Source of the DNA: Bullera alba
Taxonomy: Eukaryota > Basidiomycota > Tremellomycetes > Tremellales > Bulleraceae
DNA length: 64,000 nucleotides
NCBI GenBank assembly: GCA_001600095.1
Contig: BCIX01000005.1
Coordinates: forward strand, 998,523-1,062,522
Reading direction: 5' to 3'
The notes below the pieces were generated by a model. The model was not told where the DNA came from. It did no database searches and saw nothing but the letters and a program-made list of their open reading frames with translations. The position numbers were made by a program, and so were the translations under genes. Each line of letters opens with the position of its first letter. The first letter of the stretch is position 1. Below, in pieces: positions 39,529 through 64,000 of the stretch.

Positions 39529-39558
39529 AGACTCCTCAACCTCATATTCAGAGACAAT

Positions 39559-40964
39559 GCCGATACGGTCGGTCTGTCCCATACGGGTACGCCAATCCAA
39601 CAATCGTCAATCGCCAGACCTCCCAGCACAAGCATCCCACAAGCCGGAGAACCCGCTTCCGAGCCATACTTAGGGTTCAGCCTCAACTTGTTCGGACCTT
39701 ACGGCCTGCAATGGATGAAGGAAAGTCAATCACTGGACGATGTCTTCCGCGATCAAGAAGCTATGCACAATGCCGAACTTGTCCTTGGTCACCCGATCCA
39801 GAAGCTGAATCATACCTACGACCACCACTTCCCCACCAATGTGGAAAGGTTCGGTCTAATCAGAGTTTCCACCGCGCAGAGGATCAAGAAGGAACCGAAA
39901 AGCAAAGCGTCTCGAGGACTATGCTCTCGTGGTACCATCATCGGCATCTGCTCCAGCTGCAAAACCTGCGTCCCCACATTCGTCTATACGTGAGTAGGGA
40001 GACACTACGATCACCAGGATCTACTATCTAGTCTGTTGGCTGATGACATCCTCTTCGTCTGGTAGACACCCTTCCTTGATCTGTGATAACGACACAAGCG
40101 GACCGACTATGCTGTATCGCTTCCGCAACCAGGCCGCTAACGATATCAAGATTATGAGATGCCTTACTTGCGAACTACACCGCAAAGCCGGATGCTCCTT
40201 CAACAGCGGGGAGGTTCGTCTTCGACTGGGTTCGAATGGTTCAGTCAAGATCGTCTACCAGCCCATTGATTCGCAGATCATCGTCGTCAGGGAAGTCAGC
40301 GAGACCAACATAGGCATCAGGGACCATGTCTCAGCTGGTCAGAGCGTCGACAGCTCGGACGGAAGCTTGACGGAGTCTGAGACAGACGAAGAGGACGAAG
40401 AGGAAGAAGGGAACGAAGATGAAGAAGAGGAAGAACAAGTGACGGGCGGCTGGGTATCAAAGTACAAGGAGGTCGGGTTCACAAGTGATCCGGAGGATGA
40501 AGATTTCAGCGATAAGAGGAAGAGGAATAGGGAGAAGGAAAGGAAGAGGAAGAGGGCTTCCAATGCTCTCGGGGGCTGCAGGACATCTAAGGCAAAGACC
40601 TTGAAGTCATGTGAGCATTGATCTGCGCGGTCGTGTCTCCGCTGACAGCGATCGCAGCCACACGAACGTTTTCACCGTTGCCCACTCCGGCCCACACATC
40701 GAGCTCCAGCTCGACCTCGTCTGGGTTCTTCGAAATGAGCAGCCAAGGCCCACCAGGTCACACAGCAACCCATCGCCAGCCGGATCCTCGATTTCACAAC
40801 CAGTACATGTGGTCCAGGCGGTCAAGCCGAAAGAGAAGGCGACTCCTGACCAGCCAATGGATCTCGACAAGATCCTGGAGGAGATGAAGAGGAAGAACGA
40901 GACTCTCAAGCGGCTTCATCAACTCAAGGCGGAGAATGAGGCATTGGAGCTAGCCCTGGTATAA
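39559..40964 (+). CDS. array copy A1: unknown four-Cys, coiled-coil family (start unclear)
   Basis: Exons are about 39559-39989, 40066-40610 and 40658-40964, the last needing one more small intron (for example 47 bp near 40757-40803) or a frameshift. It has the family layout: FGPYGLQWMKESQSLDDVF, GHPIQKLNHTYDHHFPTN, then after the phase-2 intron HPSLICDN...YRFRN, RCLTCELHRKAGC and RLRLGSNGSVKIVYQ. An acidic Glu/Asp tract, a KRKR-rich stretch and the coiled coil MDLDKILEEMKRKNETLKRL follow. The frame has no ATG upstream of 39715; the ATG at 39557 is two bases out of frame with it. Copy A1 may therefore be disabled or have an unseen upstream exon. Its function is unknown. Confidence 0.65.
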
Positions 40965-41977
40965 GATAAAGGCCATATGAGGATACGTTGAAGAGAGATG
41001 TCGGGCGTCATCGCGAGAGAGAGGTGGGGATGAGACGAATGATACAATACCATATCATACATGTGCTAGAAACACCTCCGCTGCGCGGCGAGAACGGTGC
41101 CGTAGTACTCCCACTGCAAAGAAGTCATGTACAACGCAGTGCAATATGTACATACGATGGACGCGACAGAGTGAACGCGCGGTGCTCGGAGTCTAGCCAA
41201 GGGCACTCGGGAAGGCTCTAGTGACTATATAGGAGCACGTGCGGCTGACGAAGCAGCTGTCAGGCTGGCCCTCGAGGCCGATTCTTCCGCCCTCACCGGC
41301 TCTCTGGGGCGCAGGAGCCGGTTCCCGAAGGGCAGGGCACCGGCAGCCGCCTGGCACCGCTGCGTAGTCAAATCCCCGTGATCTAGAGCCGGAGTCACTT
41401 GCGACTTGTTGCGACTTCACGACGCCATGAGTGCAGACATGCATGCATGATGATCACGCTAAATCACCCAGTAGGTTTTATCTTCTACGATCGCGCAGCT
41501 GTATTGAGCTCAGCTAACATTACCGACAGATCCAAGCGAGCATCAACAGCCATGGCCCATGAGGATGGCCTCGATCGATCCCGAGAGAGATGGGTCATGG
41601 GGTTGACCTCGAGGCAAGAACACACGTCTTGCGGTCTGGTATCCGAAACTTCGAAGGGAGGGCGACACTACACCCCCGTGCATTTGACGCTGATCAGCGC
41701 TGATTCCATTTGCGACACCGTGCCTCACTTCGTCACCATCAGCAAACCCTTGATTCATCATTTCCGGCAAACATGCTTCGCACACGAGACTCGGACCGCT
41801 GTGTGCATTTGATGCGTGTTTGGAATGTGTTCTGCATATGGCATTGCGTAGTGTCTGATGATCATGCTGTAGCCCTCATCTGGTCTTGTACATACTTCAA
41901 TCAGAAGCCAACGTCATCTGACCGATACCACGGCTCCCCAGACACTCCTTGCACGATATCTGAACTCTCAAATCACT
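40965..41977. other. spacer between copies A1 and A2
   Basis: A 1.0 kb stretch. A GC-rich segment at about 41265-41370 has short CCGGCT/GGCAG-type repeats. The duplicated upstream element is at 41711-41744. No gene is supported. Confidence 0.45.
41711..41744 (+). promoter_or_regulatory. second copy of the A1/A2 upstream element
   Basis: A 34 bp stretch matching 39346-39379 at 30 positions, 234 bp before the A2 start codon. It suggests that promoter and gene were duplicated together. Confidence 0.6.
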
Positions 41978-43711
41978 ATGGCTTCGCCCTCTCGCTACGA
42001 GCAAACAACACTTGACCGAGCGGTACCGACAGCGCTTGGATCCCCTGTTGGAAGCCTCTCACTCAGAGGACCCGCTACAGAGCAGCACTTGGGCTACAAC
42101 CTCGACTCGTTTGGTTTCTACGGCCTGGTATGGTTTCAGGGATGTCAAGCGGAAGATGAGGTGTTTCGCGATCAACAAGCTATACACGACGCCGAACTGG
42201 TGCTGAGTCACCCAATCCAGAAGCTGGACCATACCTACGATCATCACTTTCCCACCAACGTGGAAAGGTTTGGTCTCAACAGACTCTCGCTCGGACAGAG
42301 GATCAAGGAGGAACCGAAGAACCGAGGATCTCTGGGTCTTTGCTCGCGCAGTTCTCGTAAGGAGGGATGTCCGAACTGTCAGTGCTGCATACCAAGTTTC
42401 GTCTACACGTGAGTGAGAGGACTCTGTGGAGTTGTGAATAGTCAGCGTAGTATTCCGGCTGAATACGAACTCTTGTCTGATAGTCATCCTTCCTTGATTT
42501 GCGACAACAACACGGACGATCCGACATTGCTATATCGCTTCCGCAACGAAGCCCACGACGAGGTCAGGATCATGAGGTGCCTCACCTGCGAATCATACCG
42601 CAAGACCGGATGCTCATACAACAATGGAGACATCCGTCTACGAAGGTCGCCAGATGGTTCAGTCAAGATTGTCTATCAGCTCGCTGGACAGGATACCATT
42701 GTTGTCAGGGACATCAGCGAGACCAACGTCGGCATCAGGGATCAACAATCAAGCAGTGATCCAAGTCCAGACTCTCACATGCAGGTGACTTTGCAGGGGA
42801 GAGGAATCAAGCGCGTAGTAAGCAACACGAGCCTGAAGGGATCGGAGGAGAAGGCTCCACAGGAGGCTGGAATCAATGGAACCGACCCATTGAAAGTCGA
42901 AAGTTCCGATGAAGACCTGACGGGATCCGAGTACGAGGAAGAGGAGGAAGACGAAGAAGAGGAGGACTATGGAGGCGAAATGATCGACGACAAGCAGGCA
43001 CCATGGCGCAATTACAAGTTCACCAGCGACCCCGAAGACGAGGACTTCAGTGAGAAGAGGAAGAGGAAGAGGTCATCTAGAAGTCGAGTCAACGGCAATT
43101 CGCGCCAGCCCAAGTCCCCCAGAATCAGTGAGTCACGGCCGTCGAGGTCGAATGATGAACGTGCGCTAACATCAGTATCAGATGACCGAGCTTCCGTTCG
43201 CAACAGGACTCACGCCTTCTCACAACTACCCACCCCCGCCACCTCTACGTCACCTGTATTCCCCGAGCTAAGAAGCAGAAACTCCGCCAACAACGACCAG
43301 CAACGGCGTCCAAGCACGAATTGCCAAAACGGTGTGATCAGTGAATCCAGCAGTGAGGATGATACCCTCGCTGAACGACAGGCATCCAGGATTCGATCGA
43401 AGGGCGCTCTCACACAGTCCAACCAGCCGAATCCCGTCTCGACGACTGGGAGTGCCAGCCCATCGACGGATGTTCAAGCGGAGTTGCTGGAGGCTGAGAA
43501 GAAACATCTGTTACTCAAGAGGATAGAGCAACTGAAGGATTCAATCAAGTCTCTGGAGCGATCCCATGCTTCTGCAGGGGACAGAGGTGGAAGATCATCG
43601 AAGGACCTGGAGGCGACGATCCAGGACCTAGAGAAGCAGGAAGAGTTACGAAAGAGGAGGATAGGGCAACTGCTTGCGGTCAACGAGGAATTGGAGCAGA
43701 GGCTGTTCTAG
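41978..43711 (+). CDS. array copy A2: intact member of the unknown four-Cys, coiled-coil family
   Basis: Three exons (41978-42408, 42484-43127, 43182-43711) give 534 residues in one frame from the ATG at 41978 (MASPSRYEQTTLD). The N-terminal domain has HLGYNLDSFGFYGLVW, EDEVF, LSHPIQKLDHTYDHHFPTN and a Cys-rich loop ending SFVYT at the phase-2 splice. Exon 2 has HPSLICDN, PTLLYRFRN, RCLTCESYRKTGC and RLRRSPDGSVKIVYQ, then SSDEDLTGSEYEEEEEDEEE and FTSDPEDEDFSEKRKRKR, which could be CK2 sites and a nuclear localisation signal. The C-terminal 100 residues form a long two-part coiled coil. It is the longest and best-preserved A copy. I know no named domain for it. Confidence 0.8.
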
Positions 43712-44261
43712 GTGAAGGGATCAGGGATAATGGGCGTGACGTGTCATTGAGAAGTAACAGACGGGTGTAGTAGGGCCGCTGCATTAGGGCGCTTCGCGCC
43801 GCCACGGCGCTTGCGAATTGCGAATGCGTGCAGCGTAGTAGCGTACGAGTTCCATGTGGCTGAGAGCATGTGTTTCATGGTGCCGCCTAAGATTTGGCGA
43901 TGAACGATGCTAGTGACTATGTCGCTAGATACTCCGCAGTGCGAACTGATCTTTCCAGTCCCAACGGGTCCTCACTGGTCCACCGTCGAACAAAGCAGTG
44001 GAGCAGAGTGGAGCACGGCCCAGAAGGGCCCAGGGCCAAGGCCGAAGCGCAGGGGCGGGATCTGATATCTGGTTCTCACGGTGTCACGCGTCAACCGTGC
44101 ACAATCGCATGTCAATGCGTCGATACCCAGCCCTACAGGTTGCAGCTGTGTCATTGTATGTTGAAATCGCTGAGTTGCATCAGTGACTTGAACTCAGTCT
44201 CCCACTGCAACAGCTCAACTTCATCCTGGCAAGGATTTATGCTGTCACGCTTCGACATACG
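43712..44261. other. spacer between copies A2 and A3
   Basis: A 550 bp stretch with no supported gene. Short imperfect repeats such as TGGAGCAGAGTGGAGCA near 43998 are present. Confidence 0.4.
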
Positions 44262-45204
44262 ATGCGAACCGTCATCACATCGACCAACCCACAAATATCA
44301 GATGGACCTTCGAGACCGCGAGACAACGTTCCTAGCTTTCTCGGCTACGACCTCAACTCTTTCGGACCATACGGCCTCCAGTGGATGCTTGAGCGTCAAG
44401 TAGATGACGAGGTTTCTCGCAGTCCACAATCAGTGTACGAAGCTGAGAAGCTCCTTGGCCATCCCATACAAGCACTGGACCACATCTGCGACCATCACTT
44501 TCCTACCAACCTCGAAAGGTCTGGTTTCGTCCGAACGGGCATCGCAAAGCAGCGAGGGCGGAAACCACGATGTCCCTGTTGGAAGAGCTCGGACAAGAAG
44601 CACTGTTCGACGTGCCAATCCTGTTACTCGTTTTCTGTACTCCTAAGTGGGGAATTCGCGAAACCTGACGGAGTGGATCTATTGGCTGACGATCATTTAT
44701 CGGACAGGCATCCTTTTTTGATCTGTAGGAATAGTGGTACACCCACTCTATTTCATCGACTACGGAACGATCCGGAAAGCGAAGTCAGAATCATGAGGTG
44801 TCTAAACTGCGAAACGAAGAAGATGGCTGGATGCGATTTCGTCAATGGAGACGTACGCTTGCGACTCGAACCGAGTGGGTCCGGTCGAAATCAACTCTGA
44901 CGAGCTCAGCGGGTCGGCGCCAAGCGCCGTCGAACTGGGGCCAACTATCGTCAGGGACATCAGGCAGACCAACGTCGGCATAAGAGAGCAATTGCCAGGC
45001 AGCAACTCGGCGCCGCAGAGGATAATGCTCAAGATCGGAGGGAGGACTAAGAGCAGTGCTGGGAACGGAATGAGCATTTCACATAAACGCACGACTGGGC
45101 CGCTCGACAGTTCCGACGATTCTTTGATGGATCCCGGGGACGAAGAGGAAGACCTATCACCGCGAGTCAACGTGCCACGACCGCCCTCCTCGCGTCCGGT
45201 TTAA
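44262..45204 (+). pseudogene. array copy A3: frameshifted and 3'-truncated family member
   Basis: It opens normally with an ATG at 44262 (MRTVITSTNPQISDG), FLGYDLNSFGPYGLQWM and GHPIQALDHICDHHFPTN. At the position of the phase-2 intron the usual GTGAGT donor is gone. The frame reads through the former intron and rejoins the Cys domain (HPFLICRN, PTLFHRLRN, RCLNCETKKMAGC) in phase. One extra base near 44879-44885 then shifts the frame: family-like TIVRDIRQTNVGIRE and SSDDSLMDPGDEEED continue in another frame to a stop at 45204. The KR-rich region and coiled coil are absent, and the next bases already belong to copy A4. I infer a deletion that joined A3 to A4. Confidence 0.75.
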
Positions 45205-46564
45205 GGCGTCCACCACCTCGGCTACGATCTCAAGTCGTTCGGACCCTATGGGCTCAAGTGATGAGAAAGTATCAAAGCCAAGACAAGTTCTTCCGAGACC
45301 TTCGATCGACACACGAGGCGGAGAAGATGCTTGGACACCCGATTCAAAGGCTCGATCACACTTTCGATCACCACTTTCCGTAAAATGTGGAGAGGTTTGG
45401 ATTTGTCCGAACGAGCAGCGAGATGAGGAAAGAGAAAGAGGCTGAGCCTAAGAAGTCTCGAGGACCATGTGTGGGCCGGCAGCACGCCTCCTGTCTGGAA
45501 TGCAGCCTACACATGCCAACTTTAGTCTACACGTAAGTCGGAAGGATGGAACAGCCCTTTCTGATTTCCTTGACCATTCGGGCACCTACTGATCGGACAT
45601 CTTTAGACACCCGTCCCTGATATGTAAAGACAGGGAGGTTGGGTCGACTTTATTCTCTCGCTTTCGTAACGAAGCGGAAAACGAGATCAGGGTTTACCAA
45701 TGCCATAATTGCCGGCTGTTTTCGAGCACACCACGCTGCAGTTTCACCGGTGGGGACATACGACTGCGATTGGAATCTAACGGATCAATAAAAATTGTCT
45801 ACCAAAACACAGCTCATGGTCCGGGCATCATCCGAGACATCCGGGAGACCAATGAGGGCATCAGAGAGGGAAAGAAACCGGCGACAACGACGGCGACTCA
45901 GGACCTGCGCCTACAGGTGGCGCCGCAGAGGAAGGCTGCGGCGGGTACACGCAGCGGGAAAAGACCTGAGGTGCACAAGAGAGCAGTAGGAGGCGGAAAT
46001 GATCACCAGAGCGATTCCGAAGAAAGTGCGACGGATCCGGAGGATGACGAGATCTTCGTCCCAACCTTGAGGTATCAAAACGGCCGCGAGATCCTCGACT
46101 TCAGCAACTCGAGCCCCGAACACACACAGAAAAAGAGGCCATCAAGTGGACCAGTCTTCGACCGAGTCGACATGCAAAGAAAGTGTGAGTTTGTGGTATC
46201 AGACTGCAAGGTGGACAAGACACTCACAATGATTTCAGCAGATCAGACAGGATCGTACAATCGGTCTCATAACCCTCTCCCTACTCCTGCACTCTCGATG
46301 AAGTCGTCTGGATCCGGGACATCGCAAACACGATCTCTACCGCCAGCCCCAAGTCGAACCTCATCGTCGACAAGCAGACCTGGAGAAGGTTCCAACGCGT
46401 CTCGAACCTCTGCTCCAGGAGGTATCACCGAAAGCAGCTCGCTACTGGATCTCGACAAGATATTGGAAGAACGAGAAGCGAGAATGAAGAAACTGCTCGG
46501 GATCGAAAGGCTCAACCAGGAAATCAAGGAGAGGGAACGGCGCCTGCAAGAAGAAGGGCTGTAG
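45205..46564 (+). pseudogene. array copy A4: start-less, frameshifted family member
   Basis: It begins within the N-terminal domain (HLGYDLKSFGPYGLK, from about 45215) directly after the A3 stop, with no start codon of its own. A missing base at about 45260 shifts the frame (the expected Trp codon reads TGA), and HHFP is followed by TAA where paralogs have HHFPTN (about 45379). Further on, the family reading is restored: LVYT before an intact phase-2 intron (45533-45606), HPSLICKD, STLFSRFRN, QCHNCRLFSSTPRC, RLRLESNGSIKIVYQ. A second intron near 46183-46240 and the coiled coil LDLDKILEEREARMKKLLG follow. The open downstream part suggests inactivation is recent or that a truncated product is still made. 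Confidence 0.75.
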
Positions 46565-47398: not shown

Positions 47399-48930
47399 AT
47401 GACGATGCGGACTGTCATTGCTGCAACCGTTCAGGTGCAAGGATCAGTGAACGGTACCACAGCACGCGACAAAAGCACACGATCGATCCCATCGCTCTCG
47501 GAGGCAGACCCTCCCTATCTCGGCTACGACCTCGCCCAATTCGGACCACACGGCCTCAAGTGGATGAAGGAGTATCAAGCCCGTGATCCAACTTTTCGCA
47601 ATCGACAAACGGTCCAGGAGGCAGAGAAGCGGCTTGGAGTCTCGCTCCAGAGACTGGACCACGTTAGAGATTGTCACTTTCCCACCAACTTAGAAAAGTT
47701 TGGCTTTGTCCGCATCAGTATCGACCAGAGGAAAGATCAAGAGCTTAAAGCAGCTATCATGTCTAGGCACCCTTGTTGGGACCGAGAGAAGGGGCGATGC
47801 GCACCGTGCGGAGATGGGGTCCCTGCTTTCATGTATGCGTGAGTGATGACGCCTGCTCCATTCTACTCGTCTAGATGTCCCGCTCGCAGCATCCTCTTGC
47901 TGATGTATTATTCCGGTCATCCAGTCATCCATCTTTGATATGTGCGAACAACGGAGACAATCCAACCTTACTTTCCCGCTTCGCCCATCGATATGGCCAA
48001 TATGCCCGCTCCGCTGAGCATAACGATGATGAGGTCTTCATCCTCCAGTGCCACAACTGCTGGGTGGGTCGTACTGGCAGGAAGTGTTCCTTCAATAATG
48101 GAAGCACCCGATTGCGATTGTTGGCAGACGGATCGGTCAAAATCCTATACAAGACCCCGTCTGTCCTGGAGGTTGCGAGGGACATCGGCCTGACGAACGT
48201 GGGAATCGAAGAGGACGCCGTAAGAAAGGACAAAAAGCGGAAGAAGGCTTCGAGGGATGAGCAGCAGAGGACGGTAGCGGCGCACGCGAAGACCAGCAGT
48301 CGGTTGCGGGCGGCGGATACCAATGCGACAGGAGGACACCCAGTCATCGTTATTGACAGCTCCGACGAGAGTGAGACGGAATCGGAGCACGACGAGGAGG
48401 AGAAGTTTTACCCAACGTTGAGATATCAGAACGTTCGCGAGACTCTCGAGGTGAGACCGACCTCTGACCAGTCTGAGAAGAAGAGGCCGGCGAATCATTC
48501 ATCCTCTGGCCGAGTTGACAAACAGAGAAAGTGTGAGTCAATGGCGTCAGCTCGCCATTCGTAGTGCCCAACAACAAGCGTTGACATAGCCTCAGCGGAT
48601 CGACTCGGGGCACTATCCAATGCTCAGAAGTTTCACGGTGCCCCTATCCCTGCACCCACGGTCAAACTTTCTGCATCTAGCACCTCGCGACCTCAGCTTC
48701 TACCGCAAGTCGCAAGCCGGCATCCATTATCCACCAGCAGACCGGGCAAGGACACTCCTGCGGTTCGTCCCTCTGCGTCAACAGGAAGCACGAGTACCAA
48801 TACCCTATCGGATCTCGACCAGATGTTAGCGGATGCGAGAGCGGAGGATAAGAAGCTAGACGAGCTCGCAGAGCTCAAGCGGGTGATCGCGGAGAAGAGA
48901 AGGCGCTTACAACAAGGTGAAGAACGGTAA
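47399..48930 (+). CDS. array copy A5: intact family member with a SUMO-interaction-like motif
   Basis: Three exons (47399-47838, 47925-48532, 48596-48930) give 460 residues; a second in-frame ATG at 47405 (MRTVIAATV) aligns with the A3 start and may be the real one. It has YLGYDLAQFGPHGLKWMKEY, LQRLDHVRDCHFPTNLEKFG, then after the phase-2 intron HPSLICAN, PTLLSRF, a nine-residue insertion, QCHNCWVGRTGRKC and RLRLLADGSVKILY. The segment PVIVIDSSDESETESEHDEEE (about 48337-48400) has the hydrophobic core plus acidic/Ser flank of a SUMO-interaction motif. YPTLRYQNVRETL is shared with A4. The C-terminal coiled coil starts LSDLDQMLADARAEDKKLDEL. The second intron is phase 1, as in the other A copies. 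Confidence 0.82.
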
Positions 48931-50499
48931 TAACGGCGATTCCCAACTACTGGCTCTAAGTCCGGGTGAAGGAGTGCATGTCTACCAGTAGTGTCTACCT
49001 TTCTTGTATTCGAGTGCTTGAACGATGTTTGGTTGTATACGGTTTTGTACCATGAGTCATGTCAGATGAGAGGCCCGCCAACAGCAGCACATATCAGAGG
49101 TGGACGACAACTGACAAATGTACGACAACTGACGAGAGTTGGCACTTGCGCTTGTAGAGGCACCTAGAGTTACTCACCGTCGGAAGACAGTGGCTAGATC
49201 ACCCGCCCTGGTCCCGCATCCTCCCGCATCACACTCATCGTATCCTGACATACCGTACATGCTGTAGGCTGTAACAGTGCTGTAATCTGTCATGCTAATT
49301 CTCGCCCATCGCTCAAGCTTTTGCGCAGCTCGGTTCTGACCTGTTCTGACCCACCATTCCGTATAACCAACGAGAGCCAACGAGGGCCAACGAGATGGCA
49401 TGCGATAAGAGGCGATAAGATCGAGGCTAAGCAGGGCTAAGCTTCAGGCTAAGGTACCTCGGGGGCGGGATCAAAGCTCAAACATAGATCTCGGTGCCGA
49501 TGCCGTCGGCCGGGTCGGCTCCGGCTCCGGGCCGATCGTTCACGCTCCCCTTCTTATCAGGTCGGTTTACAATGTGGACTGCACTTTTTTCCCTTGGGAG
49601 CAAAGAGCCAGGGCAACCTCACTTTGAGATTCCTCGATGTAGTCTGACTTGAGCGCCCCGCCAGGTCCAAGTAGGTCCAAGCAGTGTGCAAGTTCCCTCA
49701 AGTAGTAGCCGCAAGAGGCCTCAGGCCTCAAGTAGCCTCTTTCTCCAACCTCGAGTTCAATCTGGGCCCGCTTCATTTCAAAATTGACACGTGGCACTGG
49801 GTACTGAACGCATCTACTCCTATCATAACAGTATCTACAGTTACCGCATAGCTATGATAGGTTGATGCAGGTTGATGCCGTCGCCAGATCAAATTCTAGG
49901 AGCCTGTACTGATAAACTGTCGTGCCTAGGCGGCCTAGCCCATCAATCCTTCCCAGCCCTGTCCCTTCGTCTCCTCGCCCAAGACTGGCCTCGCCCTCGA
50001 TCTTCGTCTCCCGTCGATAACGGGGCTGCCGAGTAGCTTCCGCTATCCCAATCTCCCGCAGTCTCGCGCCAGCTCGCGCCGCCTTATCGTAAAGCTCGGA
50101 CCAAGGCGCGCGCGGCGCGACCCAGTCCATAGCCGGGCGCCCGGGCAGCCGTCGACATATATATAGGGTCGAGATCTTTCGAGAGTCCCCCTTCACTCTT
50201 GCAGTTCAGAATTTCAGTAGTCGTACCGTATAAAAGGCACCGTGGGAGGGTCGAAAGACACCCCTCGTATACGTAGAACTAGATACCGATTCGATCTGTC
50301 TTGTAGGCACAGCGTAGTGCAGTACTTGTACCCAGTTGGAAGGTGAGGGTATATAACGACTGCATTGCTACGCAACTATACAGCGGCTTACAGCCCGTCC
50401 AGTTGAAGGGAAAAGCTTCTTTACCCGAGATCTGCGATATCGACCCACAGCGCGCAGCGACCCACGAATACGCCTTATCCGGACATCACCTACGACAAC
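48931..50499. other. spacer between the A and B subfamilies
   Basis: A 1.57 kb stretch with no supported gene. It has small tandem repeats: a CCAACGAG unit three times at about 49366-49393, and GGCTAAG-type units near 49431-49454. The 280 bp before the B1 start are presumably the B1 promoter and leader. Confidence 0.5.
49366..49393. repeat. short tandem repeat, CCAACGAG(R)G unit, about three copies
   Basis: Three near-identical units of about 10 bp (CCAACGAGAG, CCAACGAGGG, CCAACGAG) follow each other directly. Confidence 0.6.
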
Positions 50500-52521
50500 A
50501 TGGCTGCGGGTCCTGATGTTCTCGACGAACGACAATGGTACAGGTCCTGGAACGAAGACCGCAGAGAGAACGACCGTATCTTCTCAGATGCGATCAGTCA
50601 GAAAGCGCACGAGGAAGCGATGGGCGCAGCCTTCGTTCCGTTCGAGAAGTTGGACGACTCAGAATTCATGTATGAGCAAAGATCGGATTTGACAGAAGCC
50701 CAGCAGAAGTTTGGGATGCTTCGCTATGTGCCGTATCTGAAAGAGAAAGAAGCTCTTCAGGCGTATCCAAGATGTCTTGAGACCGGGTTGCTCTACCCTT
50801 TCGTCTATTTGTGAGTCCGCCTGAATAATGCTTGGTAGTTGGGCCCCACTCGGAAGCTGATGGATTTCCCCGCAGCCACGTGGGTGTTCAATGCACCAAG
50901 AATGGCTCGCTCAAGACAACCTTCGGCTACAAAGATATGAAGCGTCTCATCACCGGAGAGAAGTTGAGGTTGTCCTGTCACAAATGTACAGCAACCCAAG
51001 ATGCTTGCGACCTGCAGGTCGGCGTCAAAGTCTTCAAACAACGAGGCACGAAATATGGCGACAAGCAACAATACGAAACCATGAATGCAGCTCTGGCATT
51101 CCGCCGAACTCAACTGGAAACCATTCTGGGAGTCAACCTCAATGCGGCATTGGATTTGGGAATCGAGGACAACGACACCATGTCCGTACATCGCAGGCAT
51201 GTCGGTCTACCTACGGAGATGGCTACTGTGCTGGATGCAGTCAAGGCTTGTCCAAGCGCTGCCACTGTACACAACGCGCTGGTAGCATTAGTGAAGTGTA
51301 AGCCGGACAGATCCTTCTACATTGCCGTTCATTTATACTGATACTCGAAGTAGTTTCTTATATACTGTCACCCCATACAGCTCCCAAAGGTTCACAAGCA
51401 CCGCCGATCGAAAGCACAGCCACAATCGGATTCACGCCCGAGAAGTCATTCGCTCCTGGTCCTATCGGTGTCAGCAATGTAATGCAATGGTCTTACGAAC
51501 AATATCTCCAGTCCAGCCCGTCGAACGTTTGTGGACCGCCTCACGAGCTCATGTCAACTGCGACAAACTTGCTATCGAGCTGCTTTGCAGGTCCGGACGC
51601 TGAGAACGAAAGCGATGGACTGCCTACCGAAGTTTCGACTCCGACACCAGAACAACTCCTCGCTGTACTCGAGACTCCTCGTGACGCGACCGAGGTCTGT
51701 CATCCACCGGAGGCAGTGTCATCTCCGCCTACCGACCCCTCTGTCGTGAACGTAGACGACAAGCCCTCGCTTGATGAGAGCTGGCAAGACGTGTTCGAGT
51801 TCGCTCAGATCGCTACATCAGACAGTGAGAAGGGTCGTCTTCAGCTTAGAAGTGTACTGTCACTGATCGTAAACCTAGCAGGCTTGGCTCTACAACCCTC
51901 TGCAGCATCCCCCGGAGGTGCTACAGATGCAGGGGACGATGTTGCAAGCGTCCCTTCGATTGCTGTGGGCGTGGGGAGATTCACACCCTTTGCCGACCAA
52001 GCCGCCAAAGGTGTCCCTGAGGTAACAGCAAATGCTCCGTACGAACAAGACCCATGCTTCACTACACCAATTCCGCCATTCGCAGGCGAATCCGACGCCA
52101 TCGCAGCCAACCTTCTACCTGCTGAAACAGCTGAACCCCACTCGAAGTAAGCCGATCAATATCATACACGGCAACCCGCTGATCTCTGGAATTAGGCAAG
52201 CCGATGCTGAGTTTCCTACCTCGGAGGCTCCAACGGCATCGTCCAATGTAGGGACGACAGCGGAAGAAGGGATCATGAACGCGAGCGAAGAGGACGGCGT
52301 GAGGCAGACGAAATCGAAGAGGATGCTGGAACCGGAGCAAGAGGAGATGCAACTGCTCGAGGGAGAGGAGATGCGAGCGAAGAAGAGGAAATTGAATGTA
52401 GACTTGAATGCGGCCGAAAAGTTGTACCTAGTGAGTTGCTGCAACACGCACACCACTTGAGAATGCTGATGGTAAATGTGATCAGGCAGGAACCCGCCGG
52501 GCGATGAATAGATCGACTTGA
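50500..52521 (+). CDS. array copy B1: intact member of subfamily B
   Basis: Five exons (50500-50810, 50876-51297, 51381-52146, 52196-52430, 52486-52521) join in frame to about 589 residues from the ATG at 50500 (MAAGPDVLDERQWYRSW). The N-terminal domain carries the B pattern: Trp, then D-x2-F (DRIF), EEAMGAAFVPFEKLDDSEF, LRYVPYLKEKEALQAYPRC, LLYPFVYL. After the same phase-2 intron as in subfamily A comes HVGVQCTKNG, SCHKCTATQDACDLQVGVKVF and KYGDKQQYETM. Exon 3 is a long Pro/Ser/Ala-rich acidic region unlike other copies, and the end is a charged coiled coil (EEMQLLEGEEMRAKKRKL). The second intron is phase 1. Its function is unknown. It is the first B copy and the longest. Confidence 0.75.
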
Positions 52522-53155: not shown

Positions 53156-53910
53156 CTCTAGGCTACTCGGAATGATCCGGTGCTGGAGCCGGCGCCTGAG
53201 CGCGGGGCGTCCTGGGGCATCTCCTCAGTGAAATGCTGAAGAGAGTCCCGCACTTCCCGCACTCCCGGTGCCCCCAATATTGGATCTGGACTTCGATACA
53301 TATACCCTCATATACCCTTACATAACGCAGTATCCAACTCTCCTCCTTCGCTCTCGACTCAGCAACACCGTCTGCGTGACCAGCATGATACGAGGGACAA
53401 CAGTACCGATCCATCGAATTACGAGGTGTAAATCGGAGCCATGGAGTACAATGAGATCTTCGGCTCTGAATACGATAAGGGCCTGTGAGAAAGTATTCGT
53501 GGCGGACACTCTCCCTCTACTGGAGCTGGACAGGACTTGGACAGGACGGGATCCCCTGACGAGATGGTCTACAGCCGCCATGGAACAGGATTAGGGTATC
53601 CGCAGGTACCTTCCAAATGAAGGACAAAGCGGGCGTTGAATGCGTAACCTCGAATGCCTGGACCGGACCTGCTCTGTCCTTCCATCTACTCGCGAGCGGT
53701 CCCGCTGTTATAGCTGCTCCTGAAATCGAACATTGAACGCTGAATAGGCCACTCACCAGCTTGGCAGGGTAGAATTGGATCGCTCTGCGTATGGCCCAGA
53801 TGCAGTCCACACTCTGAGCTCCAGGGGCTGGACGCAGCGCGAAGTGAGTGATCATCCGTTCCCAAGTGTCATGTCGCTGAGCTTCGCCAGCAGAAAATCG
53901 GATGTTAGAT

Positions 53911-54087
53911 TTCCCTCAGAAAGCCCCGTCAACCGTTCCTGGAGCTAGCGATGAGGTCGACACAAGGCAAATCGGATTGAAGAAGCTGCTAGGGGCGGAG
54001 GACGAGGAGATCAAGTTGCTGGAGGACATCAAAGAGAGGTAGGAGAAGAGGAGTAGATGCAATGAAGAGCTGGCAGCATCTAGATAG
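53911..54087 (+). pseudogene. relic C-terminal fragment of a subfamily B copy
   Basis: A short plus-strand frame reads GLKKLLGAEDEEIKLLEDIKER, stop, EKRSRCNEELAASR, stop (stops at 54040 and 54085). It matches the coiled-coil ends of copies B3 (EEEIAMLEDIRARREKRLK) and B5 (EKEELQALEELKETRAKRMR), with a stop replacing an Arg. No N-terminal or Cys domain is found upstream. It appears to be the surviving 3' end of a lost copy, lying where a gene would be expected in the roughly 2 kb spacing of the array. Confidence 0.6.
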
Positions 54088-54420
54088 TGTAGATTGTGAG
54101 TGTGGTGCGGTACACGCTCCACAAGTTGATGCTCATGTGCCCCGCAGAAACCCACCAGACGATGAAACCATGTAGAGCATGCAGCGCTCGGACATGCAGC
54201 ACGTGGCAGCCTACATGCGGCATGACTGGAGACATTCTGGAGAGTGAAAGCGAGATGGGTGCTTTGGAACGAATATGGTTGAAACACCGAGACGGCTCGT
54301 GCGTAATCATCGCCACCCATGCCTCTCGCACACCCTCATTTTGCAATGACCAAACCAGAACGAACTCTCCTTCCTCATTCGTCACGTTATTCCAAAGAAC
54401 ACTTCCGCCTCTATGACACC
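54088..54420. other. spacer and leader of copy B2
   Basis: A 333 bp stretch between the relic and the B2 start. An in-frame ATG also occurs upstream near 54349. I chose 54421 because its product aligns with the starts of B3 and B5. Confidence 0.4.
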
Positions 54421-55799
54421 ATGAACACCACCGAGAAGATCAACTTTCAGCGCTGGGTGAAACATCGCAAGTCTGGCGACCCGATGTTTCACTCCGAGGA
54501 GATAAAAAGGAAGTATGAAAGAGCCATGGGAGCTACTTTCATCCCGTTCGACAAGCTAGAAGATGAGGATTTCCCAACCGCATACGTCGGACTGGGGACA
54601 TCTCGTATCGTACCCGCCTTGAACAATAGTCAGGCACTCAAGTCGTACCCTCGATGTCCCAAGACAGGCCTGTTATATCCCTTCGCCTACAAGTGAGTCC
54701 TCGATGCTCACTCTGAAGGACAACCATTGACTGACTGGCGACCGTTGTTTTCGTCTCTAGGACTCGTTATCCCTCCCTGCGGTGCTCGAAGAATGGCTCG
54801 AACGAAACCTTCCTTGGCTACAATGACACCGGTATTTTCACTACCCGCAGCATTGTACATATTTCCTGCTTGCACTGTACGGCCACGCATGATGCCTGTG
54901 ATCTCCAGGTCGGAGTAAAGGCATACAAGTCACGAGCTCCGAGGTTCGGTGATAAGGCTCAATACGAGAACGTGGCGGACGCCCTGGCGAATCGACGAGG
55001 GCAACTGGAGAAGATACTTGGAGTCAGCTTCGGCCCGGACTCTAGCTTTACCATGGACAAGAGAGGCGCAGTGTCTCTGATCAGGACTAAGCAGTTGACG
55101 GACGAAAGCAGTAATGTGGTCGCCAAAGTATCTTGTGAGTCGGTCAAATCACGACGTCGAGTATCAGCATGGCACCTACAGATCAACCTGAAAGCCAAGA
55201 TCCCAGGTACACAGCAGAATGCACCGATTCCGGGTCCACAGATCCCGCAGGTGACCACAGGCGCACATAGTGCACCAATTCATACTACGGGCGCAACACC
55301 ATCGACAACTGCTCACCGAGACCCTACACCCACCGCAGTCGGCCAGCATGCTGCTAAGAAGATAAACAAGACCAAGCCTGTAACCGAAGCGGACAACACT
55401 CGAATCTACCCAACGCCCGTACAGTGCCCTACAAATGATGGTGCTCGAAACGCTCCACAGGACAAGGTGTCCCCATTACTCCCAAAGACCGCTCCAGTGG
55501 TGCTACCCAATGAAACATCTACAGAGCACAATACGACAGATCTAGTCCCGAAGATCACTGGAGGTGAAAGGAGCACCTCGAAAGTCGATAACCCTTCTGC
55601 GAAAAGGCAGCTTGAGATAGGTGTCATCAACGGCAAGACCACCGAGAAGAATGACGGCGGGTCGAGCGGAGGAGATGGCTCTACGCTAGACAAGTTGAAA
55701 CGAAAGAAAGAAGCCCTTGTGGAGGAGATCAAGGAGCTGGAAGCTTTCAAGGCTCTGCGACAGAAGAAAGCGAAGTTGATGGAGGACCTGGCCATGTGA
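54421..55799 (+). CDS. array copy B2: intact member of subfamily B
   Basis: Exon 1 is 54421-54692 (MNTTEKINFQRWVKHRKSG, DPMF, YERAMGATFIPFDKLEDEDF, SRIVPALNNSQALKSYPRC, LLYPFAYK). The phase-2 intron ends at 54760, and the rest runs to 55799. The Cys domain is YPSLRCSKNGSNETF, SCLHCTATHDACDLQVGVKAY and FGDKAQYENVADAL. The frame stays open across a probable second intron after 55136 (donor GTGAGTCG), so a retained and a spliced form would both be in frame. A Thr/Pro/Asn-rich linker and the coiled coil LDKLKRKKEALVEEIKELEA complete the protein, about 400 residues long. It is the closest relative of B1 in the Cys domain. Confidence 0.75.
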
Positions 55800-56369: not shown

Positions 56370-57663
56370 ATGCCCCGCGATCAGAAGAGAAGGCCGTACT
56401 CGTACTACGACAAATGGGTCGACGACGGCCAGGCAAAGGATCCAGTGTTTAGATTCCCCGAGACGAGGAAACGATACGAACGAGCCATGGGTATACCCTT
56501 CATGGCCCTTGACCAGGTTCCAGACGACAATTTCAGCTTCGAAAAGACGGATCACAAATATCCAGCATGGTGTTCGCCGCTTCATCCCCAGCCTGGATGA
56601 TAAGAGCAATGTCGATGCGTACCGCCTGTGTAGAGACTGGGGTCTTCCTGGGCATCTCCTGCCATTTGTCTATGTGTGAGTGTACAGAGCTCGTCGAGTA
56701 TCCGGGGCGAGCTAGCTATCCCGACCGAATTACGACTGACTCCTGCCAAAATGTATGCAGGCATCAAGATCTTAGATGCTCAAAGAATGGACCGAGTCCA
56801 ACACTCTTTTCCTCTCACGAGCGAGACAAACTGGTATCATTGAGACAAGCGTCCGTGCATTGTTGCGGTTGCGCAGAGCTGGGCAGGGTTTGCGATCTGT
56901 CGGTAGGAGTGAAACTGTACGCTAGAAGGAAGCCGAAGTTTGGTTCGAGTGCTCAATACAACACCCTGCAAGAGGCTCTCGAAGCTCGACATCGTTCCCA
57001 GCTCCACATGAAGGTGGCAGGTCCAGGTGCCGCATCGTAGCCCACCCCTTCCCAAGCAGGTCCCAGCAGGGCTTCGGGGGCATCCTACTACAAGTCCCGT
57101 ATCAAAGAAGGCGATCGATCAGCTAGTCAAACGGCGTAAGTCGCGATTAGACCCAGCTGGCGAAGAGTGAGGCGCTGATCAAGGTTCGCAGCTACTTCGG
57201 ACCAGCCATCCGGACCCGGTGGGTCTACTACTGCCACGACTATCACTACCAAGACTATCGCGGGCACCCATGGAGATCCAGTCCCGGCCATACCAGCACA
57301 CGCTAGGTCACCATCAACCACGACATCATCGCTTACCCCAGTCACTCCTCCAACGCCCTCCTCCGGCGGCGCACCCCTTCTGGATTGAGCTTCAAAAAGG
57401 GGACTGTTCACGGAAACATCGTGATTCCGTCTCCCACAGCTTGCGGTGGTCTGGTCCAGGAGACTTCTGGTTCTCGAGAGGAGGCGGGAGAGCAGTCTGA
57501 GCAGAGGAAATGGGACGACGGGAGAGAAGCCAGATTGGCGAGATACAAAAGAAAGAAAGAGGAAGAGGAAGAGGAGATCGCGATGCTGGAGGACATCCGA
57601 GCGAGGCGAGAGAAGCGATTGAAGGCAGACAAAGAGTTGTTTAACCCAAATGACGACCTATAG
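56370..57663 (+). pseudogene. array copy B3: multiply disrupted member of subfamily B
   Basis: It opens with an ATG at 56370 (MPRDQKRRPYSYYDKWVDD, DPVF, YERAMGIPFMALDQVPDDNF). It then shifts frame near 56561-56570: the continuing GVRRFIPSLDDKSNVDAYRLC and LPFVYV lie in another frame. The phase-2 intron and Cys domain (HQDLRCSKNGPSPTLF, HCCGCAELGRVCDLSVGVKLY, FGSSAQYNTLQEAL) are well preserved, but an in-frame TAG follows at about 57038. A second shift near 57376-57386 is needed before the coiled coil (RYKRKKEEEEEEIAMLED), which ends at 57663. Three independent lesions make a functional full-length product unlikely. Confidence 0.75.
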
Positions 57664-58400
57664 AGGGTAAAGAGACTGTGAGAGCCTAAGAGGCGAGTGA
57701 CGCCCAGGTGTTCTCGCTTGCAGGAAGAACACTGACGGGAGTCTAGAGTGGGCAGCATGTTCGATCCACCGGGTATCGCAATAGCTGGTATTTCACACCA
57801 ACCAGAATGTGTTCAGTGGTTTAGGCTCGACTTAACCAAGCCGAAGCGTGGGATTCCGTCCGAGCTCAGTCTATAGAGACTGAGACGAGTTGTACTGACA
57901 CCATCATGCAAAATCGAAGTAGTCATGGTCTCTGATGCTAACGCGGTCGTCATGATTCCCAGTCGAGGAGATAGGACGGTGCACAAGGGGGATCTGATCC
58001 AGCTCGAACACCTCGTACGTGCTGGAGATCAAACGGCTCGAACCTTTTTGAGCAATGAGGCTCCTGTTCACCGAGCACTACCTGTTCGAGATGCTTTTCC
58101 TTGACCTCTGATCCCTTATCCTAATCCCTAGCTCATGATAGTCCCAACTTCCCACCGAGAGCTGGTCAAACAGATACCCACGATCAGAAGGTCGTGATCT
58201 CCGCCTAACGGATGTTGTCTGTAAAGCTAAGGTAAGGCGTACGGCGATGAAATACGAAGAGCGCAATGAGGTCTGTGCGTTGAGCAAATTACCTTCACCT
58301 CGACCATCCATGATATCTCATCGTCTTGACATCGTCATCTTCCTCTCTTTCATCTTAACCTTTCTCCAACTCCCTAGCGCCATCTTACTGTACCAACGAC
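57664..58400. other. spacer between B3 and B4
   Basis: A 737 bp stretch with no supported gene. Pyrimidine-rich leader sequence precedes the B4 start. Confidence 0.4.
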
Positions 58401-59424
58401 ATGTCTGTAGCTTTGGCCTACACGATGGGCGATCATATCGGTCGCCATCATAGAATTAGGTGGATCCAAGAAGCGCAAAAGGACGATCCGATTTTTGGAC
58501 CGTATCGGGGCCTCGACACCCGCCAGAGGGCTAGAGATTTGGAGTTTCTGGCATTCAATGATCTGAAGGATGAAGAATTTGATCAGGGGCACTTGCTAGG
58601 CAGGGGATTTGCCCGTTACGCTCCAAGTCTTCGCAACCAAGAAGCTTTGGAATCGTACCCAGTCTGTCAAGAGATGGGAATGCTGCATCCATTTGTGTAC
58701 ACGTGAGGTCTGGTGCTCCCACGTTCACCAACTTACGATAGGAGCTGGAAAGGACCTGACGAGCTACTACTAGGAACCACTATTTGGCCTGCTCGAAGAA
58801 CGGTCCCCACCCTACTCTTATTGCCAGCACGTCGGAACTCACACGACGAGGTACCGCCGTCACTTGGTTTGAGTCCTGTCACGGGTGCACTGTCCGAGAA
58901 GACACCTGTGACCTAGAAGTCGGAGTCACATTCACAGAACAGGACACCGTAGTCTTCGGACCCGAGGGACAGTACAGTACGCTCCAGGAGGCGCTGGAAT
59001 ACGAGTGGCAAGACCGAAGTTCATCAGCTAGAACCGGTGACACTTCCAAAGAGGATCACCCAAGGTGGGTCTTCACTGCTGCTGCATCGGCGAGGTAGAC
59101 GGGAAGCTCCCAGCGGCTGAACACATCTATAGCAACATGAACACCGACAAGGAGGAGAGATCGAGGAACGGCACTCGTGACCTTAGCAGCGAGGATAGGG
59201 AAGGAGAGGAATTAGGAGGAGGAGAACGCGGAGGAGGAAGGCGAAAGAGGAAGGAAGAGACAAACCTCGAGGGAGGAGAGCAAAGGCAAAAGAAGAAGAT
59301 CAAGGATGACGATTGGCTCGTGAGAGCCAGTAAGGTGGACCTACAAGAGCTTCTTGCCTTGATCGTACGCAAGGAGATGAGAGAGACCGTCAGGCGATTG
59401 AAGGGTGAGCTCGAAGACGAGTGA
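58401..59424 (+). CDS. array copy B4: intact short member of subfamily B
   Basis: Three exons (58401-58702, 58774-59064, 59133-59424) give 294 residues in one frame from the ATG at 58401 (MSVALAYTMGDHIGRHHRI). It carries RWIQEAQKDDPIF, LEFLAFNDLKDEEFDQGHLL, ARYAPSLRNQEALESYPVC and LHPFVYT before the phase-2 intron. The second exon has HYLACSKNGPHPTLI, SCHGCTVREDTCDLEVGVTF, FGPEGQYSTLQEAL. The second intron (GTGGGT donor, GCTGAA branch site, TATAG acceptor) is phase 2 here. The tail is Glu/Lys/Arg/Gly-rich, with a helical end (LQELLALIVRKEMRETVRRL). With B6 it forms a subgroup marked by DQGHLLG-like and FTEQDTVVFGPEGQY-like segments. Confidence 0.78.
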
Positions 59425-61037
59425 AGCTTCGACTTTGACGAGCATGATTGAATCCGCTTATCTCGGGTAAGCGATCACGTTGAAGTTCTTGTGCGGACTG
59501 TCAATCGCTGACCGACAGCACTAGCAGTAGTATAACCACGGACAACCACGAGGGACCAAAAGAACCAGAGGTGAGCATAGCACTCAGCTTCGTCAGTCAA
59601 GTTGAGTATCCTGTAGAGCAGCCGGGATATCAGCACGACATATGACATTTTATATCCATGAACAGTACCTTGTATTCATCAAGTAAGAGCTTTGATATGG
59701 AAGCTCTGACTGTGTTCGTGCCAACTCACTGACTAGGTGACAATGTGTCAATGTGAGCTGTTGAGTTGTCGTTGCCCTCTACGATACTACCCACTATACG
59801 CGTTTGACGATCTCTAAGTTGGCTGCATCAGCACTGAGTTGGGTGGTTCAGTTCAGCATTCTCAGCCCTCGCAGAGTCACAGTCGCACTCGACATCATCG
59901 GAGTGTTTGGACCGACATATTGACCGGTTTGACCCCTCCGGGCTCCCGGGCTCCCGGAGCTGTTCGTTCTCATCTTCGTACGTACGGGTTACTACCTCCA
60001 AGAACCAGTTGCTCGAGCCGGTAGCCCTCTGTCGTACTCCCGTAGGTCTAATCTATGGCCGACGCCGCGCTTGTCCCTCCTCTCGGCATCTAGACGGCGA
60101 GACGCTACGTCCATTTTTGCGTTGACGTTTGGTTGACGCTGACTTTGGGACCCTTGCCGAGATCTCGAGGCGGAAACTGGAAAGTGTAGTGATAAGACTA
60201 AGCATTATGGCTGGATTATCGAGCGACTGGGTGAGCTCGGGTCCTGCGTCTAAGGAGGTTCGAGCAAACGAGTGCATAGTATTTACGATTCTACGTTGCC
60301 TCGCCTTTGGACCTGCCCATTGCCAGCGATGAGCGGCCCACCGGCAAACCCGCCGGGCGCCGGCACAGCTGCCGAACTCCGCTGCATGTGATCAGCAACC
60401 GTGAGAGTGCATTGAGCGTGCACCAAGCCTTTCGCTTTCTCTCAACGACCCAATGACCCAGCCGATGGCTGCAGACTTCCCTAATCCTGGTCTCGGAATA
60501 GTGCCTCAAACCGACAATTCGGTGGTGAGTCCATTCGCTCTAGAATGACACAAGCTGACAGAGCGTCGGATTCAGTATCAGGCGGAGATGGCGGATCCGT
60601 CGAATGATTTTGGGTCAAAGAGCTGCGTATAGCGCTCAATGCGACCTCGGGAGCATCCCAGATCCCTGACGGAACTCAGGTGTATCGGATGGAGGTGGTA
60701 GTTCTGATACCTCCGCCATGTATCCTCATCACATTGTAAGCGCGGTTCAGCGGCAGTTCGTGTCACAGTCACTCAGACGCCACGCGTCAGGCGCGTCAGG
60801 CCTCAGGGGAGTGAGAGCGGCTTGAAGCTTGAAGGGTTGAATGATCTGCGACTGCATTGCGCATCAACTTTGCCGTCACTCAACTTACAGCGGCGTCCCG
60901 TCACCATCCGATCACAATCACAAACAGCTTGCCTTTGTACTTCATCTGTCAAGTCCTCAGCAGAATCGACCGACTTCACCGATTTCCATCGAACTCCTAT
61001 CTTCACAAATCTCCACCAAGCTTTTTGGCCCCTCACC
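59425..61037. other. long spacer between B4 and B5
   Basis: A 1.6 kb stretch with no confident gene. A weak coding signal at about 60453-60750 (an ATG opening MTQPMAADFPNPGLGIVPQ, a GTGAGT donor and a possible short second exon) is discussed as a finding. The 200 bp before 61038 are presumably the B5 promoter and leader. Confidence 0.45.
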
Positions 61038-62269
61038 ATGACAAGCCCTCGGGATGACCGGCGGAAATACGAGAGGTGGGGTCAGCGTTCTAGACACCTT
61101 GACCAGGTGTTCGGAAGCGAGAATCGCCAACAACGATACGAACAAGCACTTGGTGCTCCGTTCATTTCACTTGATGAGCTTGATGACAAACTTTTCGCCT
61201 TCGATAGGGTGGATATAAGGGCAAAGCCGGGCGGCATGCGTCGATACATTCCTCCCTTGGAGGACACGCGAGCTTGCGAGGTGTATCCCAAGTGTCCCAT
61301 CAGCGGCTGGTGCTTGCCATTCGTGTACAAGTGAGTTCCCAGTTCGGCATGCAGCCCTTCAGCTCGGTGCGTCGGGACAATAGCACAAACTGACATAACA
61401 CCCTTGTCCGTTAGTCATAGCGATCTGCGATGCTCCAAAAACGGCGAGGACCCGACCCTGTTCACTAGCGATGAGCGAGACCGACTGCTGTCACGGAATA
61501 GGGTGGCCATGAGCTGCTACGCATGCTCTACATCCGGGGACACATGCGACCTATCTGTCGGCGTCATGTTGTACGGCAAGAAGAAGTGCAAGTTCGGACT
61601 GCTATCCCAATACAAGAGCGTGCAAGAGGCTCTTGCTGCTGGAGAGGCCCGGAGCGCGGCCAGCACAAGGGCGATGGATGGCAACGCCGACCGAAAACCC
61701 GATGTGTCCCACGCGGGGAGTAATAGTTCGTCTGCAGTGGCTCCTGCCAGATCAGGAGTAACCCAGCTGCCAAAACAAAAGATGACTACTCGTAAGTCGG
61801 CCATTAGTTACAACAGATGGTGATCGAACTGATTCACATCATAGGGGCGCCAACCAATGATACGACTGTGGCCGTTCCGACTGGGCATGTGGTCGCTCGC
61901 GAAATACCCAACCCAATCTCAGCCCGGCCGCTGTCAGCCAATTCTCCCACAACAACCCCGTTCGCGTCCACATCGACCGCAAGAGCCTCAAGCCCAGGAA
62001 GGGCTACTGCAGCCGCATTAGCCAGCGAAATCGGCAGGACGCTCATTGGCAGAACTCCTATGAGACAATCTGGAGTACAGGACGAACGAGGCACGCGCCC
62101 GAGAGCGAACGACGTAGGTGGACATCAGAACAGGAATCTGGAGGAGACAGTGGCCAGGACAGAGAGGTACAAGAGGATGTTGGCAAACGAGAAGGAGGAG
62201 CTTCAGGCCCTCGAAGAACTCAAAGAGACTAGGGCGAAGAGGATGAGACTAGCGGAGGAGCTGTCATAG
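61038..62269 (+). CDS. array copy B5: intact member of subfamily B
   Basis: Three exons (61038-61330, 61415-61791, 61845-62269) give 364 residues in one frame from the ATG at 61038 (MTSPRDDRRKYERWGQRS). The N-terminal domain has DQVF, YEQALGAPFISLDELDDKLF, MRRYIPPLEDTRACEVYPKC and CLPFVYK. After the phase-2 intron come HSDLRCSKNGEDPTLFTSDE, SCYACSTSGDTCDLSVGVMLY and FGLLSQYKSVQEAL. The second intron is phase 1. A Ser/Thr/Ala/Pro-rich linker leads to the coiled coil ERYKRMLANEKEELQALEEL, then KRMRLAEELS. It is the cleanest B copy for defining the family model. Its function is unknown. Confidence 0.82.
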
Positions 62270-63213
62270 TGACCCCCGGGTCAGGTACAACCGAGTGAGT
62301 CATTTGAAGGAGAGAGAAACAGCCCATGATTGGCAGGATGGAAGCCGACGCTGACAGGTGCATGTAGGTTGTCACACGGTTCGGGGGCGACGCACGGCCA
62401 ACAGCTCAACATGGCAATCAGTCTCTGTCAATCTGTGAAGACCTCGTTGTTCTCAAATCTCACTATCCACTATCATGCAAATATCAGTCAGCCGCTTTCC
62501 ACAAACAGACTGTTGCAAGCAGTTATAGTTCAGAGATGTGATGATATCATGATAGTGATAACGGGGGAACTCATGCCTCCAGCCTCTGCAGGAGCACTGT
62601 ACGAATACGCTGGGAGTATATCTTCGGAATTTGACTAATGTCGATTTTCGGTAGCAGGAAGCTCTGCCGCTTACCTCTGCTCAGCGCTCACACCTCACTG
62701 TCTCAATCCGAGCTGGCGGCGAGGGACATGAGGACTCGATGAAATGGCTGTCACTTACCGACAACCAGCGGATTGGGCTCACGTAAGATTTGCGCGAGGT
62801 GAATACTCCATCGTAGGCCAACAACAATTGGATACAGGGATGACGAAGGGCTTCACTGTCTGCGCGAATTGTGAAGTGCGTTGAGCGATATGGCAGTGTG
62901 ACTGTGTCACTGTGTGAGTGCGGTGTGCCACCGTGATTGGCCACCGTGGGAATGCAATATGCCTGCACCAGCCTGTCGCAACTCGCAGCCAGCCACCAAG
63001 GCGCTACCAAGGCGCTACGTTTCGTACGAGCGTACATCCGCTTGGCGTGCTTAACAGTGTTACCGTTTCTGGAAGTTCTGGGCACCATCTTCTCTCCCTC
63101 AAGCTCATCGACACTTCACCTCACGGATCCTACGACGCCTCTCTGCTCCGCATTCACTTCCCATCACTTTGTCCGGGGCCGGATCAGCTACTGTCTCGAA
63201 GTCTCGTCACAGT
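62270..63213. other. spacer between B5 and B6
   Basis: A 944 bp stretch. Minus-strand and plus-strand open frames are short and unlike the family. A small GTGTGACTGTGTCACTGTGTGAG repeat-like segment occurs near 62894-62917. Confidence 0.4.
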
Positions 63214-64000
63214 ATGGCACGCAAACACTACGATGCGTGGTGTGCTAACTATCAGTCCGATGCAATCTTCAACTGCTGCATAGGTCTGAGCACTCGGATG
63301 ACCGCAAGGAAAGTTAACCTTTGTGCCTCGCGAGGTCATGGAAGACGGGGAGTTCGACCACAGGCACCTCCTGGGCAGAGCATTCTTGCGTTATGCTCCT
63401 AGCCCTCGCAACCGAGCCGCACTGGAGACCTACCCCCTCCGCCCAGACCGGAACCAAATGCTACCGTTTTGTCTACGCGTGAGTTCGAGAGCGAGATTAT
63501 CGATCATCCATCACCCTCTATCACCATTGCTATACATTCATATCAAGCTAAGGCTCTACCTCTAGGCACCAGCAGCTGGTTTGCTCAAAGAACGGCACCG
63601 ATTCGACCTTCATCCCAAGTACTTCGCAAATCACACGCCTGGTGCCCACAACTCCGTTCGAACCTTGTCATGGATGCTCCATCAGACAAGAACCTTGCGA
63701 CCTAGAAGTCGGAGTGAAGTTCACAGATCAGGACACCATTGTTTTTGGGCCTGAGGGACAGTACCGCACCCTCGCAGAGGCACTGAAAGCTCGAGCCGCT
63801 GCAAGCATCTCTCCCGCGGCTCCAGTAGGACAACGACTTATCAGCCACCGGAAGACGAACGCAGACAATCAGCATGACGTAGAAAAGGCAAGCAAGAGTA
63901 CGAAAGTCGCGAAGGACGACGCAGAGAGGAGGCCCAGGAAAAGGGAGATAGATACCATCTTTGAGGGGGAAGTGGAGGTACTGAGGAAGAAAGCCAAAAG
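63214..64000 (+). pseudogene. array copy B6: frameshifted member of subfamily B, cut by window end
   Basis: The ATG at 63214 (MARKHYDAWCANYQSDAIF) starts the N-terminal domain. One extra base at about 63311-63318 shifts the frame before FVPREVMEDGEFDHRHLLGR, which aligns with B4. A second extra base in a T run (about 63470) spoils LPFVYA just before the splice site. Exon 2 from 63566 is intact to the window end: HQQLVCSKNGTDSTF, PCHGCSIRQEPCDLEVGVKF, FGPEGQYRTLAEAL, then a Lys/Arg-rich stretch leading into the coiled coil. Both lesions are single extra bases next to short homopolymers, so assembly error is a real alternative. Confidence 0.65.

Follow-up and report, generated by a model that had tools for sequence, protein, structure and literature searches.

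The window analysed here is a 64-kb stretch of DNA (positions 998523-1062522 of contig C5) from a 19.4-Mb genome in seven contigs of 1.0-8.0 Mb; it has a GC content of about 54% and short introns. From 39.6 to 64.1 kb lies a tandem gene array, the last copy of which (B6) extends 118 nt beyond the window end. Searching the 64-kb window with nine exon queries (tblastn) detected 11 exons encoding a four-cysteine domain, every one on the plus strand, which bears out the preliminary description of a head-to-tail array of at least eleven copies. The copies fall into two homologous subfamilies: A1-A5, in which tblastn places the starts of the four-Cys exons near positions 40067, 42485, 44709, 45608 and 47926, and B1-B6, in which they start near 50877, 54762, 56762, 58775, 61416 and 63567. 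Copy spacing ranges from 0.9 to 3.9 kb with a median of about 2.3 kb, close to the 'roughly 2 kb' first proposed, and the ten longest open frames in the window gave a best Pfam E value of 0.072, in agreement with the earlier statement that no other confident gene lies between the copies. The array and its readable models are laid out as follows.

39557..40964, plus strand: A1; exon-1 domain at 39661-39989, exon 2 beginning at 40066, and a C-terminal helix that reaches 40964
41978..43711, plus strand: A2; readable, 534 amino acids; exons 41978-42408, 42484-43127 and 43182-43711; database relatives P0002-P0004
44262..45204, plus strand: A3; degenerate, having lost the donor of intron 1 (now CTAAGT), with a frame stop at about 44900
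45214..46564, plus strand: A4; TAA and broken frame in exon 1, open frames in exons 2-3 (45607-46184, 46239-46564)
47399..48931, plus strand: A5; readable, 460 amino acids; exons 47399-47838, 47925-48532 and 48596-48931; weak DUF3716 match
50500..52460, plus strand: B1; readable in a four-exon model (50500-50810, 50876-51297, 51381-52146, 52196-52460)
53585..54075, plus strand: degenerate B-type remnant; its C-terminal helix contains a stop, and the end of exon 1 is weakly matched
54421..55799, plus strand: B2; readable, 436 amino acids; exons 54421-54692 and 54761-55799; near-identical database protein P0001
56370..57663, plus strand: B3; exon 1 frame-broken, C-terminal helix in frame at 57382-57663
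58401..59424, plus strand: B4; readable, 294 amino acids; exons 58401-58702, 58774-59064 and 59133-59424
61038..62269, plus strand: B5; readable, 364 amino acids; exons 61038-61330, 61415-61791 and 61845-62269
63317..64000, plus strand: B6; incomplete exon 1 with its frame broken; the frame of exon 2 extends from 63552 to 64118, past the window

Spliced models without an internal stop were obtained for A2, A5, B1, B2, B4 and B5, the same six copies that had been called intact from the letters. As modelled, the other five (A1, A3, A4, B3 and B6) lack a continuous reading frame. The A1 frame fails at its start and in its 3′ part, through breakage or unrecognised introns; B3 exon 2, from 56761, hits a stop at 57040 or contains an unrecognised intron; and the end of A3 is the beginning of A4. 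For A1 and B3, part of the non-reading could be due to unrecognised introns; where a copy is broken by a single base, the cause could be an assembly error. The predicted second intron of A2 (43128-43181) is 54 nt long, in frame and open, and is open also in P0002-P0004; it may be retained or coding. The remnant between B1 and B2 matched the C-terminal part at E 1.7e-4 and the exon-1 part at E 0.32. Outside the window, a B4-like match at 64.85 kb (E 0.001, where the best match in reversed sequence reached 0.33) is probably a second remnant of the family, and from there to 93.9 kb the nine exon queries returned weak matches only (tblastn, E 0.08 or worse).

Several features of the surroundings were also recorded. 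An NBR1-like gene (window 35812-38528; N_BRCA1_IG above cut-off, ZZ below) lies directly upstream of the array, a glycoside hydrolase family 2 gene is found at 32787-34676 and a chitin synthase at 8.6-10 kb of the window. The chitin synthase and the NBR1 Ig-like domain make a fungus the most likely source of this DNA, and the short introns and GC content are in keeping with a basidiomycete. A 34-nt stretch upstream of A1 (39346-39379) is 88% alike to one upstream of A2 (41711-41744) and is possibly a shared promoter element. Contigs C1, C3 and C6 have a telomere-like repeat, CCTCTAA, at their first bases; this differs from the Kwoniella telomeric motif, named as TAAC(4,5) in one study (PMC11185503). 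Kwoniella and Cryptococcus were set aside as hosts, and a 5.8S search gave no hit.

From the N to the C terminus, the readable products consist of an exon-1 module and an exon-2 four-cysteine module, then a linker of low complexity and, last, a C-terminal segment that is charged. The four cysteines of exon 2 follow the pattern C-x~23-C-x2-C-x6-8-C and are invariant in 11/11 copies, so the four-Cys domain of the preliminary description stands. Its N-terminal helical domain is weakly supported, with an AlphaFold pLDDT of 49.8, and its C-terminal coiled coil holds for some copies: heptad periodicity was suggestive in A2, A5, B5 and B2 (matched by 36, 64, 64 and 119 of 2000 shuffles, respectively), but not in the other copies scored (214-406 of 2000 shuffles for A4, B3 and A1, and 1262-1515 for B1, B6 and B4). 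Basic clusters occur in five of the six readable models, B5 having none; they lie in the linker of A2, A5 and B4, also near the C terminus of A2 and A5, and once each in the C-terminal part of B1 and B2. The highest 19-residue Kyte-Doolittle mean was 0.61-1.46 across the six readable models, with no membrane-like stretch; as to signal peptides of secreted effectors, the same measure, used alone, gave no hydrophobic mean above 1.46. The predicted models of the two domains (pLDDT about 50 and 67) yielded no confident fold, and comparison of the exon-2 model alone with solved structures (Foldseek, VIA) returned nothing informative. Sequence searches of the PDB with B2 residues 1-179 and with the profile of exon 2 gave only two matches, at E 0.28.

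Profile-profile comparison (hhalign) joined A and B in exon 1 (P = 2.1e-8, probability 95%) and in exon 2 (P = 3.5e-5, probability 72%), and a phase-2 intron between these exons has the same place and phase in both. This intron has a GT donor at the same place in 10/11 copies (in B6 as judged by eye), the exception being A3 with CTAAGT. At the level of sequence, the matches of both exons and the common intron position make A and B one family. The tree parts the two groups with 100/100 support, and within them the two-exon tree pairs A1 with A2 (99/96), B3 with B5 (89/94), B4 with B6 (86/76) and B1 with B2 (80/82).

That this gene family is unrecognised, as had been stated, was borne out by Pfam: no model reached its cut-off in the scanned pieces, which comprised A2, B2, B5, A5 and B4, pieces of B1, A4 and B6, and the exon-1 domains of 8 copies and exon-2 domains of all 11, the 3′ parts of A1, A3 and B3 lying outside this set. 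The best score was that of DUF3716 against A5 exon 2 (17.9 bits, cut-off 22). Other names below threshold, among them T2SSF, LepB_GAP_N, zf-AtTam37, Myotub-related, CDV3, HSBP1 and DUF1450, were judged to be chance. For exon 2, the best NCBIfam E value was 0.065, and the papers listed by literature searches for such an array brought no lead.

Four single-protein searches of the genome (B1 exon 1, A2 exon 1, B5 exon 2 and A5 exon 2), in which introns are disregarded and a score is given to the best candidates alone, found only the array locus and one further match, at C3:1794879 (E 0.07). We considered the latter as a distant relative and took it to be chance, because the opposite strand carries long open frames that by eye resemble AVO1/SIN1. 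Among 5.8 billion database proteins, the B alignment had one match and the A alignment three at E 0.01; these four proteins, P0001-P0004, matched at 66-100% identity. In a control search with an exon of the NBR1-like neighbour there were 45 matches at E 0.001, the lowest identity among them being 33%, about 8000 candidates of a length similar to the query being scored in each of the A, B and control searches. Since the control exon has a widely kept domain, it demonstrates that relatives of this kind are present in the database and is no matched yardstick. Set against these 45 matches, the four found for the array suggest that the family is likely to be lineage-restricted.

We compared copies within subfamilies, using 12 pairs for exon 1 (A4, B3 and B6, broken there, were excluded) and 25 for exon 2 (11 copies). 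pN was lower than pS in 37/37 pairs. dS was saturated in 23 of the 37 and ranged from 0.81 to 2.87 in the 14 pairs for which it could be computed; dN/dS in these 14 was 0.13-0.45, with the highest value involving the degenerate A3, and as whole-domain averages these ratios would not show selection for change at a few sites. With dS saturated or no lower than 0.81, the array copies are old; with pN below pS throughout and a low dN/dS, their domains are under constraint.

The database relatives bear on more recent change. P0002 differs from A2 at 6/405 residues (98.5% identity) and P0001 from B2 at 1/309 (99.7% identity). P0003 and P0004, from two other sources, are 85% and 70% identical to A2 and much less similar to A1, so the split between A1 and A2 probably predates the parting of those sources. 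Relative to P0003 and P0004, respectively, A2 is 95% and 89% identical in the covered part of the four-Cys domain (56 residues, the first Cys lying outside), 94% and 86% in the acidic-basic block, 87% and 72% in the first linker, 81% and 59% in the second linker, and 78% and 64% in the C-terminal part. The near-identical P0002 breaks this order, with three of its six differences in the acidic-basic block. The divergence of A2 looks like ordinary domain-and-linker evolution, not hypervariability.

Together, these data describe a real array of an undescribed family that appears to be lineage-restricted; its age and the constraint on it are greater than the preliminary description had supposed. 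The invariant cysteines, the basic clusters in five of six readable models, the lack of membrane-like stretches and the charged C-terminal segments suggest what these genes might do, and we put the probability of the following reading at roughly 40%: the family would be old and its products nuclear regulators that bind metal and pair through helices, with some copies in decay, a function that we infer. The proteins would be intracellular and probably nuclear, and the family would have spread and been kept as a tandem array. The four cysteines would hold a metal ion, and the exon-1 and exon-2 modules would jointly make up a head that binds DNA, RNA or protein. Nuclear targeting would come from the basic runs, and through their C-terminal helices copies would pair with themselves or with one another, the array thereby supplying a set of regulators. 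Also in line with this reading are the good preservation of the four-Cys domain and acidic-basic block of A2 relative to P0003 and P0004, pN below pS in all 37 pairs, the pairings in the two-exon tree and the single locus found by the genome searches. Local duplication may have made the copies, perhaps including duplication of a two-gene block (B3-B4 / B5-B6); their divergence is ancient, and five of them are in decay or incorrectly modelled.

A somewhat unlikely alternative is that the family is on its way out, a former regulator the tandem copies of which are mostly redundant and in which only A2, and perhaps B2, is still selected. The five copies that do not read through and the two remnants would fit, as would the finding of clearly distinct orthologue-like proteins for A2 only. 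However, six copies have stayed readable despite a near-saturated dS, which genes without selection would not do, and missing orthologues are weak evidence because the database relatives appear as single open frames and proteins of similar length were scored.

We consider it improbable that these are conflict genes, for self/non-self recognition, spore killing or another purpose, in an array gaining and losing copies. The rapidly evolving conflict or self/non-self family of the preliminary description had the tandem layout and the interspersed broken copies and remnants in its favour, and the relatives found are close ones only. It does not sit well with the age and low dN/dS of the copies, with pN below pS in every pair, with orthologue-like proteins of A2 at 85% and 70% or with the few differences from the near-identical proteins, and the scanned pieces and the six models offer neither HET, NACHT or repeat domains (Pfam) nor a membrane-like segment. 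Just as doubtful is the idea that the family is a diverged offshoot of DUF3716, a cysteine domain, that expanded in this lineage. A5 exon 2 aligns with PF12511 positions 32-58 at E 0.003, and of the two places returned by a genome search A5 was the better (18 vs 15.1 bits); yet the other ten exon-2 domains had no match, full-length A5 drops to 13.9 bits (E 0.052) and the A5 score is the best among 31 scanned pieces.

The regulator reading has a bolder form, which we hold to be a long shot: exon 1 and exon 2 would form a new two-part metal-binding head unique to one fungal lineage, and the copies would act as combinatorial nuclear regulators whose C-terminal helices choose their partners, with a possible role in compatibility or development. 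Derivation from the DNA-binding part of a domesticated transposon, multiplied in place, is very improbable. The A-type CxxC...C and following strands are loosely like the FLYWCH/FAR1 pattern, but in the scanned pieces neither a transposase nor a zinc-finger family reached its Pfam cut-off, the genome searches found no dispersed copies and the common introns point to DNA duplication rather than retroposition.

Orphan families long kept in one place offer a plain test of how new protein modules originate and persist. Should the module prove to bind both metal and nucleic acid, the array would represent a new regulator family; should the family be in decay, the array would document the way in which families of this kind disappear.

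Among known systems, DUF3716 is a fungal domain of unknown function, and a literature search found no paper naming it. A5 exon 2 resembles it in aligning over its CxxC and next Cys, but only the second half of the profile is covered, below cut-off and in 1/11 array copies. The B copies have C-x2-C-x6-C-D, which is the first-half spacing of the fungal Zn2Cys6 binuclear cluster; unlike that cluster, the array copies have four invariant cysteines rather than six, and no Pfam match to it in the scanned pieces. Allorecognition and spore-killer families are multi-copy, with pseudogenes beside intact copies, as in the array. Drivers of the wtf type have several membrane helices, and none were seen in the six models by the 19-residue Kyte-Doolittle maxima given above. 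None of the domains of families such as het/NLR, Spok and wtf (the subject of PMC9262711, PMC1805685, PMC6660238 and PMC6526906) was found in the array, with no HET, NACHT/NB-ARC or repeat domain in the Pfam-scanned pieces. On the high allelic diversity of het/NLR genes, the comparison covers two near-identical database proteins, with 6/405 and 1/309 differences. Unlike the het/NLR, Spok and wtf families, the copies of this array are old and constrained.
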